A stretch of 64,000 nucleotides of DNA from Saprospiraceae bacterium (GTDB taxonomy: Bacteria > Bacteroidota > Bacteroidia > Chitinophagales > Saprospiraceae), in assembly GCA_026982695.1 (NCBI GenBank), contig JALSGS010000030.1:1-64000 (forward strand). Reading direction: 5' to 3'. Both the position numbers and the translations under genes were made by a program. Shown in pieces: positions 20,107 through 25,613 of this stretch; position 1 is the stretch's first letter, and each line of letters begins with the position of its first letter. The notes beneath the pieces are model-generated. The model was not told the origin of the DNA and made no database searches. It saw nothing but the letters and a program-made list of their open reading frames with translations.

Positions 20107-20191
20107 TACCCACGACTGGACTCGAACCAGCACGGCCTAAACGGCCACCAGGCCCTCAACCTGGCGCGTCTACCAATTCCGCCACGTGGGT
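20107..20191 (-). tRNA. tRNA-Leu (anticodon GAG)
   Basis: 85-nt class II tRNA. The acceptor stem ACCCACG/CGTGGGT, the D arm TGGCGGAATTGGTAGACGC typical of tRNA-Leu, anticodon stem CCAGG/CCTGG with loop TTGAGGG (anticodon GAG), a long variable arm with GGCC/GGCC pairing and a TTCGAGT T-loop are all visible. The discriminator is A; CCA is not encoded (ACCT follows). The first pair is A-U rather than the common G-C. Confidence 0.96.
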
Positions 20192-21007: not shown

Positions 21008-21071
21008 GAGATTGAGGTGCTTGGAGATCGTAACTGCATGGCGGACAGGTAGCATTTTTTTAGCAGTTGCT

Positions 21072-21102
21072 TTTGAAAAAAACTTCTGAACGCGTACGTT
21101 TG
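21072..21102 (+). promoter_or_regulatory. Promoter of the Phe/Tyr biosynthesis operon
   Basis: TTTG (21072-21075), exactly 19 nt, then TACGTTTG (21095-21102), a full match to the Bacteroidota TTTG-N19-TAnnTTTG promoter. Transcription would start near 21109, about 29 nt before the first leader peptide. Confidence 0.75.
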
Positions 21103-21137
21103 TACCGCAACCATTACCCAGCGAAGCATCTCTACTC

Positions 21138-21200
21138 ATGGCGTACCGCTCAGCATATTACTTTTACTTTTTTTGCTTTTTCAGTTCCTGCCGGGGCTGA
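21138..21200 (+). CDS. Leader peptide 1 of the aromatic operon (Tyr/Phe sensor)
   Basis: A 20-codon frame reads MAYRSAYYFYFFCFFSSCRG then TGA. It holds four Tyr and five Phe codons, nine of twenty residues, with seven of them within the run YYFYFFCFF. Its stop lies on the upstream strand of a predicted antiterminator (21189-21198). This is the layout of a ribosome-sensing leader peptide: a ribosome waiting for Tyr- or Phe-tRNA stops upstream and leaves that strand free, while one that reaches the stop covers it. The frame is too short for routine gene finders. Expression is inferred, not shown. Confidence 0.85.
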   Translation: MAYRSAYYFYFFCFFSSCRG

Positions 21201-21245
21201 GGCGAGCGCATGTGTAGTGCAGAGCTTCGTTTTAAAGTCCCGGTA
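21189..21245 (+). promoter_or_regulatory. Antiterminator 1
   Basis: TGCCGGGGCT (21189-21198) pairs with AGTCCCGGTA (21236-21245), ten pairs including two G-U. The 3' strand includes almost the whole 5' arm of terminator 1, so the two structures exclude each other. Confidence 0.75.
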
Positions 21246-21262
21246 AACGGGACTTTTTTTTT
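21234..21262 (+). terminator. Attenuator terminator 1
   Basis: AAAGTCCCG (21234-21242), loop GTAAA, CGGGACTTT (21248-21256), continuing as a nine-T run (21254-21262). It lies 34 nt after the leader 1 stop. Confidence 0.9.
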
Positions 21263-21290
21263 GCCCAATGCCCTGATCAAGAAGAACCAG

Positions 21291-21362
21291 ATGAACTGCA
21301 TGGGATACACGTATTACTATTTTTTTAGCCTAATGGACCATCGGCGCCTATGGGTTGTGTAG
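21291..21362 (+). CDS. Leader peptide 2 of the aromatic operon (Tyr/Phe sensor)
   Basis: A 23-codon frame starts at the ATG at 21291, preceded by purine-rich AAGAAGAACCAG, and ends at TAG (21360-21362). Its core reads MGYTYYYFFSLMD, with four Tyr and two Phe codons at 21306-21326. A ribosome held there would cover to about 21332, leaving the antiterminator strand at 21335-21346 free. A ribosome at the stop would cover that strand and let the terminator form. It follows terminator 1 by 28 nt, so it is only transcribed after readthrough of the first attenuator. Confidence 0.87.
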   Translation: MNCMGYTYYYFFSLMDHRRLWVV

Positions 21363-21388
21363 CACATTTCCATACTTGCTGATGGTCC
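21335..21388 (+). promoter_or_regulatory. Antiterminator 2
   Basis: GGACCATCGGCG (21335-21346) pairs with TGCTGATGGTCC (21377-21388), twelve continuous pairs with two G-U. It takes up the first three bases of the terminator 2 stem. Confidence 0.85.
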
Positions 21389-21407
21389 CGCTACGGCGGG
21401 ATTTTTT
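21386..21407 (+). terminator. Attenuator terminator 2
   Basis: TCCCGC (21386-21391), loop TACG, GCGGGA (21396-21401), then six T. The C(UACG)G cap is a UNCG-type tetraloop, known to be unusually stable. It lies 24 nt after the leader 2 stop and 24 nt before pheA. Confidence 0.92.
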
Positions 21408-21431
21408 GTTTGACCTGATAACGATGATCCG

Positions 21432-22346
21432 ATGAACACTACATCTACACCTGTGTCGCCACAAGTCGCTACTCAATCGGCAGTATTGCCTGTGCTCATA
21501 CAGGGAGTGCGCGGCGCGTTCCACGAGTTGGCAGCGCGTCGTTTTTTTTCCAAGCAATCCATACAGATTGTGCCTGCCGACACCTTTGCCGAGCTGGTAG
21601 CACGGGTAGCTGATCCACAGGCGCAGGCAGTAGGTGTGATGGCTATAGAAAACTCTTTGGGAGGTACTTTGCTCCAGAATTATATGCTGTTGCAAGAGAG
21701 CAACTTGCATATAACTGGCGAGGTGTATTTGCGCATTAGCCAGCACTTGATGGCCTTGCCTGGGACCACTTTGCGGGATTTAGAAGAAGTGCATTCTCAT
21801 CCCATGGCTATTGCACAATGCCGCGAGTTTTTCCACCAGTATCCTCATATCCGTTTGGTGGAAGCTTCCGATACTGCACTGAGCGCGCAGCAAATTGCCC
21901 AACAGCAATTGTGCAAAGTAGGAGCTATTGCGAGTACTTTGGCAGCTGAGTTGTATGGCTTGGAGATACTGGCTGCCGAGATCGAAACACATAAACTCAA
22001 CTATACCCGATTTCTAGTTATTGGTAAGGAGCCTCTTCAGCAGCTCGAGCAGGAGTTTAAAGTATCCATTTCGTTTGCGCTCACTCACGAGGTAGGTAGC
22101 CTACATCAGGTGTTAGCTGTCTTGGCAGCTTATCAACTCAACCTGACGAAAATCCAATCTGCTCCCATATTGGGTAGGCCGTGGGAGTATCGATTTTTCA
22201 TCGACTTTGTCGCAAGTGGCTCTTTGAGCTGGCAGCAAGGCCTTGATGCCATCAGACCGCTAGTCAGTGAGTTGCGCCTGCTGGGTGCCTATCCTTGTGG
22301 ACAGATCGACGGGTTCGCTACATCAACGGATAAAAAACATAGGTGA
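21432..22346 (+). CDS. pheA: Prephenate dehydratase
   Basis: 304 residues. It converts prephenate to phenylpyruvate, the committed step to phenylalanine. The catalytic domain (about 20-200) shows AIENSLGG, HSHPMAIAQCREF and NYTRFLVIG, the Thr-Arg-Phe active-site signature. The C-terminal ACT domain (about 212-295: ALTHEVGSLHQVLAVLAAYQLNLTKIQSAPI) is the usual phenylalanine-binding regulatory module. It is a stand-alone dehydratase; the chorismate mutase activity is on the last gene of the operon. First structural gene after the tandem attenuators; its last base overlaps the next start. Confidence 0.93.
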   Translation: MNTTSTPVSPQVATQSAVLPVLIQGVRGAFHELAARRFFSKQSIQIVPADTFAELVARVADPQAQAVGVMAIENSLGGTLLQNYMLLQESNLHITGEVYLRISQHLMALPGTTLRDLEEVHSHPMAIAQCREFFHQYPHIRLVEASDTALSAQQIAQQQLCKVGAIASTLAAELYGLEILAAEIETHKLNYTRFLVIGKEPLQQLEQEFKVSISFALTHEVGSLHQVLAVLAAYQLNLTKIQSAPILGRPWEYRFFIDFVASGSLSWQQGLDAIRPLVSELRLLGAYPCGQIDGFATSTDKKHR

Positions 22347-23569
22347 TGATCATTCGACCGGCACGGCGCCTTGGGCAGGTGCACGAGTACTACTTTTCGC
22401 GCAAGCTGAGCGAAATTGCCCAGATGAATCAGCAGGGAGCACCTGTGCTGAACTTAGGCATTGGCAGTCCCGATCTGCCACCCCCACCGCAAGTTGTGGA
22501 TGTATTGAAACGCCATAGTAACGATCCACATGCCCATAGCTATCAGAGCTATCGCGGATTGGCCGAGTTGAGAGCGGCTTTTGCCAAGTGGTACGAGCGT
22601 CATTTTGAGGTGGCACTCCATCCTGATAGGGAAGTGTTGCCATTGATAGGCTCTAAAGAGGGCATTATGCATCTGGCCATGACGTGGCTGGAAGCGGGCG
22701 ATGAAGTATTGGTGCCCGACCCGGGTTATCCTGCTTATGCAGCGGCGTCGCGTCTGGCAGGTGCGAAAGTGCGTACTTATCCATTGTGTGCGTCGCATGG
22801 GTGGTTGCCCGACTTGGATCAGCTTCAGCGCACTGACTTGAGTCGTGTCAAGCTCATGTGGGTGAATTATCCACACATGCCTACTGGTGCACCTGCTACT
22901 GCGGAGCTTTTTGCTGCGTTGGTGGCTTTCGCCAAAAAGCACCACGTGCTGTTGGTCAACGACAACCCTTATAGCTTCATCCTCAACGATCGTCCTTTGA
23001 GCATTTTATCAGTAGCAGGAGCCAAGGAGGTAGCTGTAGAGCTCAACTCGCTCAGTAAATCGCACAATATGGCCGGATGGCGCATTGGCCTGTTGGCGGG
23101 TAAGGCTGAATACCTGAGCGAGGTATTGCGTTTTAAAAGCAATATGGATTCGGGCATGTTCAAACCCGCCCAGCTGGCAGCAGTAGCTGCATTGGAAGCT
23201 GAAGATGCGTGGTACGAGGCACTCAATGCCGAGTATCGGCATCGCAAGGCGTGGGCTCAACGACTATTGACGGCACTTGGCTGCACCTTTGATACCTGCC
23301 AGGTAGGTATGTTTGTTTGGGCACGTGTACCAGCGCGCTGGCCCGATGCCTTTGCCATGTCGGATGATCTGTTGCAAAGGGCACGCCTGTTCTTAACGCC
23401 AGGTGGCATTTTTGGTCAGCAGGGGCAAGCATGGATACGTGTGTCGTTGTGTAACCCTCCTGCTGTGTGGCGCGAAGCCATGAAGCGCCTCGAACGTGCT
23501 GGACTTATCACCCCTGCAACGCAGGCAGATTGCCCAGCTCCTTGTTTGCCGAAAGGCCAAGTACATTAA
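22346..23569 (+). CDS. Class I/II aminotransferase (aromatic branch)
   Basis: 407 residues from the ATG at 22346, which overlaps the pheA stop as TGATG. A GTG three bases earlier is possible. It is a fold-type I PLP enzyme: LNLGIGSPDLPPP near the N-terminus, DPGYPAYAAASRLAG, VNYPHMPTGAPA (the NPTG equivalent is NYPHMPTG), NDNPYSFI, and the Schiff-base lysine in NSLSKSHNMAGWRIG. Given its place between prephenate dehydratase and prephenate dehydrogenase it most likely transaminates phenylpyruvate and 4-hydroxyphenylpyruvate to Phe and Tyr. Similar enzymes also make LL-diaminopimelate or alanine, so substrate is inferred from context. Confidence 0.88.
   Translation: MIIRPARRLGQVHEYYFSRKLSEIAQMNQQGAPVLNLGIGSPDLPPPPQVVDVLKRHSNDPHAHSYQSYRGLAELRAAFAKWYERHFEVALHPDREVLPLIGSKEGIMHLAMTWLEAGDEVLVPDPGYPAYAAASRLAGAKVRTYPLCASHGWLPDLDQLQRTDLSRVKLMWVNYPHMPTGAPATAELFAALVAFAKKHHVLLVNDNPYSFILNDRPLSILSVAGAKEVAVELNSLSKSHNMAGWRIGLLAGKAEYLSEVLRFKSNMDSGMFKPAQLAAVAALEAEDAWYEALNAEYRHRKAWAQRLLTALGCTFDTCQVGMFVWARVPARWPDAFAMSDDLLQRARLFLTPGGIFGQQGQAWIRVSLCNPPAVWREAMKRLERAGLITPATQADCPAPCLPKGQVH
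22924..22938 (-). repeat. Sister iterated motif TTTTTGGCGAAAGCC, copy B
   Basis: Perfect copy on the minus strand in the aminotransferase gene. The coding strand reads Ala-Phe-Ala-Lys-Lys. Together with copy C it shares 18 bases, GGTGGCTTTCGCCAAAAA. Confidence 0.7.
23545..23557 (+). repeat. Iterated motif TTTGCCGAAAGGC, copy 3
   Basis: Perfect copy, the only one preceded by G rather than A, at the 3' end of the aminotransferase gene where it encodes Leu-Pro-Lys-Gly. Confidence 0.85.
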
Positions 23570-23586: not shown

Positions 23587-24486
23587 ATGAAGCATATGGA
23601 GCGATCGCAGGTGGTAAGTGTTGTAGGGCTTGGCCTAATTGGTGGATCGATGGCGATCACCTTGAAGGAAAACGGCTTTGCCCATCACGTGATTGGTGTC
23701 GACAAACAACGGGAAAGTGAGGAAAAGGCATTGCGGCGTTGCATTATCGATGAGGCTTTGCCGTTGGAAGAGGCTGTAGCTCAGTCCGATGTGGTATTGT
23801 TGGCTACGCCCGTAGATGTATTGGTCAACTTGTTGCCACAAGTGCTCGACATAGTGGATCGACAAGTCGTTCTGGACATGGGGAGCACAAAGTTTCCGTT
23901 GGTACGTGCCGTAGCCACTCATCGGCGCCGGGGGCGGTACGTGGCGGCGCATCCAATGGCTGGTACTGAGTTTTCGGGCATTGAGGCTGCACAGCCCCAT
24001 CTGTTCGACCACAAGGCTATGGTACTGTGCGACCTTGAGAAGAGCGACCAAGACGCTGTAGCCCTTGCTTATGCTTTGTGTGCCTCTATCCCCATGCAGC
24101 CCGTAAAGCTCGAGGCTGAGGCTCACGACCTGCATGCAGCTTATGTATCGCATATATCTCACATAAGCTCTTTTGCCTTAGCGCTCACCGTATTGGCTAA
24201 AGAGAAGGACGAGCAGCGCATCTTTGAGCTGGCCAGTGGTGGTTTTAGCTCTACGGTGCGTTTGGCTAAGAGCTCGCCCGATATGTGGGTGCCCATCTTT
24301 CGGCAAAACCGCGATTTCGTGCTCGACGTATTGGACGAGCACATCAACCAATTGGCGCGTTTTCGCAGCTTGCTCATCAAAAAAGACTTCGACACCTTCT
24401 ACCGCCTCATCGAAGAGGCTAACGACATCAAGCGCATTCTCGACAAGCCCAAAATGCCTATGGCTGTGCCTCAAAAACTTACTTGA
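23587..24486 (+). CDS. tyrA: Prephenate dehydrogenase
   Basis: 299 residues from the ATG at 23587; a longer frame overlaps the aminotransferase and lacks family similarity. It oxidises prephenate to 4-hydroxyphenylpyruvate for tyrosine synthesis. VVGLGLIGGSMAITLK is the NAD(P)-binding Rossmann loop, followed by VVLLATPVD, LDMGSTK and the substrate-site HPMAGTEFSGI. The C-terminal half is the helical dimerisation domain. No ACT domain is fused. Gap to the aminotransferase is 17 bp. Confidence 0.94.
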   Translation: MKHMERSQVVSVVGLGLIGGSMAITLKENGFAHHVIGVDKQRESEEKALRRCIIDEALPLEEAVAQSDVVLLATPVDVLVNLLPQVLDIVDRQVVLDMGSTKFPLVRAVATHRRRGRYVAAHPMAGTEFSGIEAAQPHLFDHKAMVLCDLEKSDQDAVALAYALCASIPMQPVKLEAEAHDLHAAYVSHISHISSFALALTVLAKEKDEQRIFELASGGFSSTVRLAKSSPDMWVPIFRQNRDFVLDVLDEHINQLARFRSLLIKKDFDTFYRLIEEANDIKRILDKPKMPMAVPQKLT

Positions 24487-24521
24487 TTGTTCATGAACTA
24501 AAAAATAAAATCATCTCCACT

Positions 24522-25613
24522 ATGGATATCCGACCAGTCTTTCCCAATTTTCAACGGCCCGTGCTGATCGCAGGCCCTTGTAGTGCCGAGACGGAAGCTC
24601 AAGTACTGAGTACCGCTCATGCCTTGGCCGAACAAGACATTGATCTGTTTCGAGCAGGCATATGGAAGCCGCGTACGCGACCCGATTCTTTCGAAGGTGT
24701 AGGGGCTAAAGGTTTGGCATGGTTGCGGCGCGTCAAAGAAGAGACGGGCTTAAAGGTAACTACCGAGGTGGCCAACGCCAATCACGTATACGAAGCTTTA
24801 AAGTATGGCATAGATGTGCTTTGGGTAGGTGCACGTACTACGGTCAACCCTTTTAGTGTACAAGAAATTGCCGATGCCTTGCGCGGTGCCGATGTGCCCG
24901 TATTGGTAAAAAACCCCATCAACCCCGATTTGAAGCTGTGGATGGGTGCCATAGAGCGCCTCTACAAAGCAGGCATTACGCGCCTTGCAGCCATTCATAG
25001 GGGCTTTTCCTACTTCGGCGAGACGCGCTATCGCAACGTGCCACGCTGGCAGATTCCGCTCGAGCTCAAACGCCACTTTCCCGACATGCAGCTCATCTGC
25101 GACAATAGCCACATCTGTGGGCGGCGCGATTTATTGCTCGAAGTAGCCCAAAAAGCTTTGGATCTCAACTTCGACGGCCTGATGACCGAGGTGCATCCTA
25201 CACCTGACAAAGCCTGGAGCGATGCAACCCAACAACTGACTCCAGTAGATTTCGTCCATATGGTCGATCAGCTCGTCGTGCGCCAGCCAACAACTGATGA
25301 CACGGACTTTCTCGAAACACTCGACAACTTGCGCCACCAGATCGATGAGCTCGATGAAGAGCTGTTTCAAATATTGGGTCAGCGCATGCAGGTAGCTGAG
25401 CGCATTGGTCTGTATAAAAGGCGCAACAATATTTCCATCTTTCAACCCCACCGTTGGGCACAGATTATCGAAAAGGCGGTGATCAAGGGCAGACAGTGGG
25501 GCCTAAGCCGAGAATTTGTCGAAGTGCTATTCAAAGCCATACATGACGAGAGCATTAACCACCAAGAGCGGGTGATGAAAGCTGCTAATAATGAGCTAAA
25601 CGTCGAAAGATAG
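24522..25613 (+). CDS. Bifunctional DAHP synthase / chorismate mutase
   Basis: 363 residues from the ATG at 24522. Residues 1-265 form a type I-beta DAHP synthase (LIAGPCSAETEAQ, FRAGIWKPRTRPDSFEG, KNPINPDLKLWMGAIERL, ICDNSHICG, MTEVHPTPDKAWSD), which condenses PEP and erythrose-4-phosphate at the entry of the shikimate pathway. Residues about 275-355 form an AroQ-class chorismate mutase (LRHQIDELDEELFQILGQRMQVAERIGLYKR). In this fusion the mutase domain often acts as the feedback sensor for prephenate or chorismate. Last gene of the operon: entry enzyme, mutase and both terminal branches are thus under one attenuator control. Confidence 0.94.
   Translation: MDIRPVFPNFQRPVLIAGPCSAETEAQVLSTAHALAEQDIDLFRAGIWKPRTRPDSFEGVGAKGLAWLRRVKEETGLKVTTEVANANHVYEALKYGIDVLWVGARTTVNPFSVQEIADALRGADVPVLVKNPINPDLKLWMGAIERLYKAGITRLAAIHRGFSYFGETRYRNVPRWQIPLELKRHFPDMQLICDNSHICGRRDLLLEVAQKALDLNFDGLMTEVHPTPDKAWSDATQQLTPVDFVHMVDQLVVRQPTTDDTDFLETLDNLRHQIDELDEELFQILGQRMQVAERIGLYKRRNNISIFQPHRWAQIIEKAVIKGRQWGLSREFVEVLFKAIHDESINHQERVMKAANNELNVER

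Follow-up and report, generated by a model that had tools for sequence, protein, structure and literature searches.

Transcription attenuation in its textbook form places one gate before each operon, and it has been studied mostly in Proteobacteria. The pheA, trp and his leaders of E. coli are ribosome-mediated attenuators of amino-acid operons which share with the locus described here a short, amino-acid-rich leader, mutually exclusive antiterminator and terminator structures and a cognate operon downstream. Our locus departs from them in that two complete units follow one another, each leader contains both amino acids, the promoter is of the Bacteroidota type and no Rfam family scores above threshold. 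A comparative study by Lopatovskaya and colleagues from 2010 reportedly may describe single attenuators in Bacteroidota.

Naville and Gautheret (2010) knew of leader-peptide systems, ermC aside, only from Proteobacteria and Actinobacteria, and they added a case from the Firmicutes (PMC2965389). The B. thetaiotaomicron map includes short ORFs described as reminiscent of leader peptides (PMC7366714). The F. psychrophilum transcriptome study, whose authors wrote of strong clues for leader-peptide attenuation before amino-acid biosynthesis operons, reported in 2021 that pheA of Flavobacteriaceae is preceded by a structured 5' element (PMC9723704). That element resembles ours in gene and phylum, but the description of it that we draw on, unlike ours, contains neither a tandem pair nor an analysis of Phe/Tyr codons (PMC9723704).

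Tandem regulators of other kinds have also been described. As presented in the sections on its leader, the Salmonella mgtCBR mRNA carries tandem attenuators that respond to ATP and proline; as we propose for our locus, two leader ORFs within one mRNA leader act independently, but there the signals differ and are additive, whereas here the same two amino acids are read twice and each unit has an intrinsic terminator of its own (PMC3641672). The account of the mefA/msrD macrolide operon likewise has two leader-peptide attenuators, one operon and one signal; unlike the present case, the signal is a drug, and the first attenuator controls mefA and msrD but the second msrD only (PMC10314930). Tandem riboswitches and tandem T-boxes are similar in that full sensor-plus-terminator units are repeated for the same signal, although, in the descriptions we draw on, they sense by binding of ligand or tRNA to the RNA and not by a translating ribosome (PMC9481103, PMC12452182). 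A steeper dose response is described for the tandem same-ligand, or "pseudo-cooperative", riboswitches (PMC9481103). Our literature search for tandem Phe/Tyr or Bacteroidota leader-peptide attenuators, with most subscription papers outside its reach, returned no tandem same-signal ribosome-mediated pair before an amino-acid operon. The tandem form and its spread therefore appear undescribed, and to this extent the novelty suggested in the preliminary description holds; the presence of a structured element before pheA in this phylum had already been noted (PMC9723704).

The leader of the Phe/Tyr operon

The operon lies on the forward strand of a 64,000-nucleotide stretch of DNA, which we call the window, from a Saprospiraceae genome of 3.84 Mb in 61 contigs. 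Its four genes are pheA, a prephenate dehydratase with an ACT-like C-terminal part (21432..22346; PRK11898.1, 203.9 bits, cut-off 219), an aminotransferase whose best model is an LL-diaminopimelate aminotransferase subfamily (22343..23569; PRK09276.1, 382.8 bits, cut-off 507), tyrA, a prephenate dehydrogenase (23587..24486; PRK08507.1, 340.6 bits, above the cut-off of 295), and a DAHP synthase fused to a chorismate mutase domain (24483..25613; PRK12595.1, best stretch residues 24-265). NCBIfam matches back all four, with the curated cut-off passed by tyrA only. Chorismate mutase models match about residues 275 to 373 of the DAHP synthase fusion, all of them below their cut-offs. The start codon of tyrA is tentative; the ORF finder gives 23467. 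This fourth gene is the DAHP synthase that the preliminary description placed in the controlled unit, and the same gene order was seen in 45 of 80 fetched Saprospiraceae stretches, many of the others being too short to hold all four genes. An Rfam search of the whole window at gathering thresholds found no T-box or other leader family, its single match being a tRNA gene on the reverse strand at 20107-20191.

A Bacteroidota-type promoter is found at 21072..21102 on the forward strand, with a -33 element TTTG at 21072-21075 and a -7 element TACGTTTG at 21095-21102, judged against a consensus that we take to be TTTG / TAnnTTTG. Transcription would start near 21109. Just 5' of the promoter region, about 28 bases at about 21008-21036 recur elsewhere in the genome (L002, G000:C9:20381-20408) at 93% identity. 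In the window, no second promoter-like site was scored in the interval from leader 1 to leader 2. The 30 relatives with tandem units, whose identification is given below, follow the same pattern: a promoter-like site stands 5' of leader 1 in 27, where base shuffles would give 1.3, and only 1 genome has such a site between its leaders, where 4.0 would be expected. Because such sites occur before leader 1 and scarcely between leaders, both gates are probably carried on one transcript, and the sequence of the window, with its single promoter as originally claimed, probably has both of its units on one transcript too.

Leader peptide 1, MAYRSAYYFYFFCFFSSCRG, is encoded at 21138..21200 and has the 20 codons, 4 Tyr and 5 Phe first ascribed to it; its counterpart in G028, a genome of the same genus, is MTNHAQYFFYGYFFFSSPRD. 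Antiterminator 1 (21191..21242) is predicted to pair strand 2 at 21191-21210 with strand 3 at 21224-21242 at -21.2 kcal/mol. It was rightly recognised in the preliminary description, but it extends beyond the limits given there (21189-21198/21236-21245). Intrinsic terminator 1, AAAGTCCCG-GTAAA-CGGGACTTT with a T tail, lies where it was first placed, at 21234..21262, with a 9-bp hairpin at 21234-21256 and Ts to 21262.

The second unit repeats this layout. Leader peptide 2, MNCMGYTYYYFFSLMDHRRLWVV, occupies 21291..21362 and, in agreement with the earlier reading, has 23 codons with the run YTYYYFF (4 Tyr and 2 Phe overall). Its frame is also open upstream to an ATG at 21210, just past the stop of leader 1, and runs through terminator 1 (21210-21362). 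This long extension is probably due to chance; the corresponding ORF in G028, MNRMTCFAYWYYYFF..., has in common with leader 2 the MN.M start that lies closer to the Tyr/Phe codons. Antiterminator 2 (21334..21389) is predicted to pair strand 2 at 21334-21355 with strand 3 at 21368-21389 at -28.3 kcal/mol, so that the helix first drawn at 21335-21346/21377-21388 exists but is longer. Intrinsic terminator 2, GGTCCCGC-TACG-GCGGGATT with a T tail (21384..21407), has the UACG cap reported for it, on an 8-bp hairpin at 21384-21403 with Ts to 21407; two of its 8 pairs are G-U. Leader 2 of G028 ends so close to the terminator that its stop codon either adjoins or overlaps it, which we count against a two-gate model.

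The region thus contains Phe/Tyr-clustered leader ORFs, intrinsic terminators between them and the genes, antiterminators that exclude these terminators and the cognate operon downstream, as attenuators do, and it contains them as two complete same-signal units on what promoter-like sites indicate is one transcript. We consider it very probable that two complete ribosome-mediated transcription attenuators in series gate the Phe/Tyr operon. The basis for this is computational and consists of anatomy, conservation, genome-specific pairing, dependence on ribosome position and a single promoter. In such a system a ribosome on leader 1 would trail RNA polymerase and, when charged tRNA-Phe or tRNA-Tyr is scarce, would halt on the Tyr/Phe cluster. 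The next downstream strand, left uncovered, would pair with the 5' arm of terminator 1 and so bring about antitermination. With charged tRNA plentiful, the ribosome would move on and mask that strand, and terminator 1 would form. Polymerases past gate 1 would face an independent second copy of the identical test, so that transcription of pheA, the aminotransferase gene, tyrA and the DAHP synthase gene would require both gates to be open and read-through would be roughly the product of the two gates. Leader translation, stalling, termination and the product rule are all steps that we infer. By analogy with tandem riboswitches, two gates may give a steeper response and a lower leak.

Recurrence in Saprospiraceae and other families

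We searched upstream of pheA in related genomes with a strict detector, which accepted as a leader an ORF that opens with ATG, spans 8-45 codons and holds 5 or more Phe/Tyr in a stretch of 8 codons, and as a terminator a hairpin of -8 kcal/mol or better 3' of the leader with a T-rich tail. Among 120 genomes searched, 81 of the family had a pheA match; 79 of these together with G149 made up 80 loci. With the fragments G039 and G005 omitted and too little upstream sequence in G104 and G099, the sample comprised 78 Saprospiraceae genomes, duplicate loci (L033, L035, L162, L163 and L166) having been removed. Two units were found in 30 of the 78 genomes, one in 39 and none in 9. Both units are present in G028, the one further genome in our collection from the same genus as the window, and a further Saprospiraceae contig (L034), one of the seven loci L033-L039 scanned for units from a separate contig search, also has two. 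Some assignments are less clear-cut: G106 is single in the strict tally and tandem in the tree tally, its second unit having been found by our first detector only, and G031 has a second leader for which no terminator was detected. The upstream-placed unit is the sole one detected in G098 and G018.

Order and class searches extended the survey to 87 genomes of other families with enough upstream sequence (fragment matches G205 and G250 were omitted, and G140 had too little), of which 5 had two units, 43 one and 39 none. The five tandem genomes belong to three families, two to f70, two to f12 and one to f58. The f12 pair (L228 and L230) has a very divergent PheA, yet two Phe/Tyr-rich units, and its sequences suggest that doubling arose independently outside Saprospiraceae. 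In G114, G003 and G068 the DAHP synthase gene lies 5' of pheA, and here a unit was found 5' of DAHP synthase in all three (first detector; L316, L317 and L318), with none directly before pheA by the strict detector.

Pairing, folding and alternative explanations

In the window, antiterminators 1 and 2 each beat shuffled strands with p of about 0.01, the floor of 100 shuffles, and among the relatives the antiterminator was better than shuffled strands (p<=0.05) in 25/30 first units, 28/30 second units and 34/39 single units. Measured from the first base of the last Phe/Tyr codon, the 5' strand begins at a median distance of 14-15 nt, a value taken without a control from a search region that began at that codon; this is about the expected edge of a stalled ribosome. 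When the antiterminator pairing and the terminator pairing of each genome were compared with those obtained from strands of other genomes, both were weakened by the exchange, with 0/5000 permutations as good in the first, second and single classes alike, and for both antiterminators the result was still 0/5000 within GC bins.

Alignments A1 and A2 take in 19 of the 30 tandem genomes. In A1 the core helix of antiterminator 1 is paired in 95.6% of cells, with 4 pairs changed on both sides, a count reached by 4/500 shuffles; its covariation score was reached by 0/500, and the same was true of the scores of terminator 1 (0/500) and terminator 2 (0/500). Antiterminator 2 gave no covariation on the MAFFT alignment of the 19 tandem genomes. 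We attribute this to a one-base misregister of strand 2, since a one-column slide scores higher in that alignment, and the alignment-free tests support a predicted antiterminator 2 pairing. Apart from this failed alignment test, the relatives retain Tyr/Phe codons, terminators and antiterminators together, which is what the preliminary description had led us to look for.

The leader ends have a feature of their own. Many leaders (27/99 units) end in FYGxP before the stop, a consequence of a palindrome in the DNA over the last Tyr codon and the stop, for example TTATGG-TCA-ACCATAA; L012 and L315 are among the relatives with such leader ends. A leader-end stem of at least 6 bp occurs in 52/99 units as against at most 12/99 at six shifted positions. 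The small hairpin that the palindrome can form adjoins strand 2; by eye, it is not in unit 1 of the window.

Snapshot folding, with the ribosome placed at successive codons and the last strand of the terminator (strand 4) still untranscribed, gave a mean sequestration of strand 3 of about 0.7 with the ribosome on the Phe/Tyr cluster (99 units). Past the last Phe/Tyr codon the mean fell to 0.58, 0.38 and 0.25 at the first, second and third codon, and farther on it was about 0.22, the sample shrinking from 99 units at the start to 95 at three codons past. In these snapshots the antiterminator melts within 2-3 codons of the last Phe/Tyr codon, and both window units show the expected switch as the ribosome is moved codon by codon. 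With strand 4 present, terminator 1 of the window rises from 0-0.26 on the cluster, the last Phe codon excepted, to 1.0 past it, and terminator 2 from about 0.3-0.7 to about 0.95. At the last Phe codon of leader 1 the terminator is already favoured, a point that we count against the model. On the naked window leader with strand 4 present, terminator 1 stands at 1.0 and terminator 2 at 0.29. In most relatives, equilibrium folding with strand 4 favours the terminator although the ribosome is stalled (class means 0.73-0.79), and a switch above 0.3 was found in only 4/39 single, 8/30 first and 6/30 second units, so the model depends there on co-transcriptional kinetics. By computation, the position of the ribosome on the Phe/Tyr codons would decide between the structures in the snapshots and, with strand 4 present, in the window. 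Sequence and folding tests together support the earlier interpretation of the locus as an attenuator.

It is improbable that only one unit is active and that the other is the decaying relic of a duplication. Single units are indeed common (39/78), the upstream-placed unit stands alone in G098 and G018, and the two units of one genome are alike beyond GC-matched cross-genome pairs (69.5 vs 59.3, 0/5000), as after duplication or conversion. Such within-genome likeness is consistent with either process, and genome-specific biases other than GC may contribute to it. Against it, genome-specific antiterminators and terminators are kept in both unit classes (0/5000 each), and both window units switch in the folding snapshots. 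The tandem state also clusters on a quick maximum-likelihood PheA tree of 78 genomes, where it requires at least 17 changes against a shuffled mean of 24.5, with 2/1000 shuffles as low. The tandem state is labile but inherited; its inheritance argues against a relic, and its lability we count against the two-gate model.

Still less probable is a coupling of the units, in which strands would pair across them and the opening of gate 1 would help gate 2 to open. Energetically, the window would allow arm 4 of terminator 1 to pair with arm 3 of terminator 2 (-12.0 kcal/mol), but across the relatives this pairing has no significant advantage within genomes over between genomes (710/5000, and 2341/5000 in GC bins), and we rejected an arm 4/arm 3 relay as a conserved mechanism. 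The two cross antiterminators, in which strand 2 of either unit would pair with strand 3 of its partner, have a slight advantage when both strands come from one genome (15 and 29 of 5000 permutations); in GC bins this advantage shrinks (256 and 125 of 5000), and the pairings fit shared ancestry. Two gates acting independently in series remain our preferred reading.

That the mini-ORFs and hairpins arose by chance in an AT-rich leader, as ordinary terminators unrelated to translation, is extremely unlikely: Phe and Tyr codons are T-rich and the reverse complements gave one unit in 2/78 (two units in none), but the strict detector found 0/78 in each of two dinucleotide shuffles, genomes with DAHP synthase 5' of pheA carry the unit ahead of DAHP synthase, and His-, Trp- and Ile/Val-rich leaders with terminators stand before many hisG, trpE and ilvD genes of the same genomes (scans made without a shuffle control). 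Coding sequences also gave 0/78 by the strict detector. At the level of sequence comparison, these results confirm that the double unit is real and not a chance feature.

Gate number and its variation

In the 30 tandem genomes we also scanned the his, trp and ilv operons, where counts of "none" are upper bounds because contig ends shorten some loci. One Trp-rich attenuator precedes trpE in 27 genomes and two detector matches do so in 3; from sequence and place we judged one match of each of these three pairs to be spurious, and the doubling is not convincing. HisG was found in 28/30 genomes: 21 have a lone His-rich unit before it, 2 have a pair (L335 in G029 and L344 in G016), and in 5 no unit was detected. 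For ilvD there is one Ile/Val-rich unit in 12 genomes, two in 2 (L399 in G095 and L408 in G016) and none detected in 16. G016 is thus tandem at three operons, Phe/Tyr, his and ilv. In the window's genome, hisG is preceded by just one His-rich attenuator, MNRTHRHHHHVHASPKGRW, and trpE by just one Trp-rich attenuator, MNFTFVHTNNWWWPRPSPTCRVR (L324 and L367 are its his and trp loci). In these genomes, themselves selected for it, doubling is mainly a feature of the Phe/Tyr operon.

The median hairpin energy of Phe/Tyr terminators is -13.6 and -13.75 in tandem units and -16.1 in single units (Mann-Whitney p=0.004, relatedness ignored). For his the corresponding median is -21.1 (23 units) and for trp it is about -25.5, the latter from 30 values with the three spurious matches left out and both from scans with a slightly wider search range. 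As a reading of these energies and not a test, two weaker gates may be said to replace one stronger gate.

On balance we lean, by a little, towards viewing serial attenuation as a recurrent design of the Saprospiraceae, in which two weaker gates in place of one strong terminator, set before the operon at the head of the aromatic pathway, would provide pseudo-cooperative control by charged tRNA-Phe and tRNA-Tyr, copies would be repeatedly duplicated and lost while staying alike within each genome, with sporadic doubling at his and ilv, and the number of gates would be an evolvable setting of steepness. Within the family, the same operon is preceded by no, one or two gates for the same signal, and the single-gate trp operons of the same cells provide an internal comparison. 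This variation would allow one to test directly if gates in series make amino-acid control sharper or deeper. Sharpening has been argued for tandem riboswitches, in the treatment we draw on (PMC9481103), and in the literature we searched we did not find it argued for ribosome-read attenuators with one amino-acid signal. For the Bacteroidota, whose amino-acid metabolism is poorly mapped, the tandem leader supplies a further piece of regulation.
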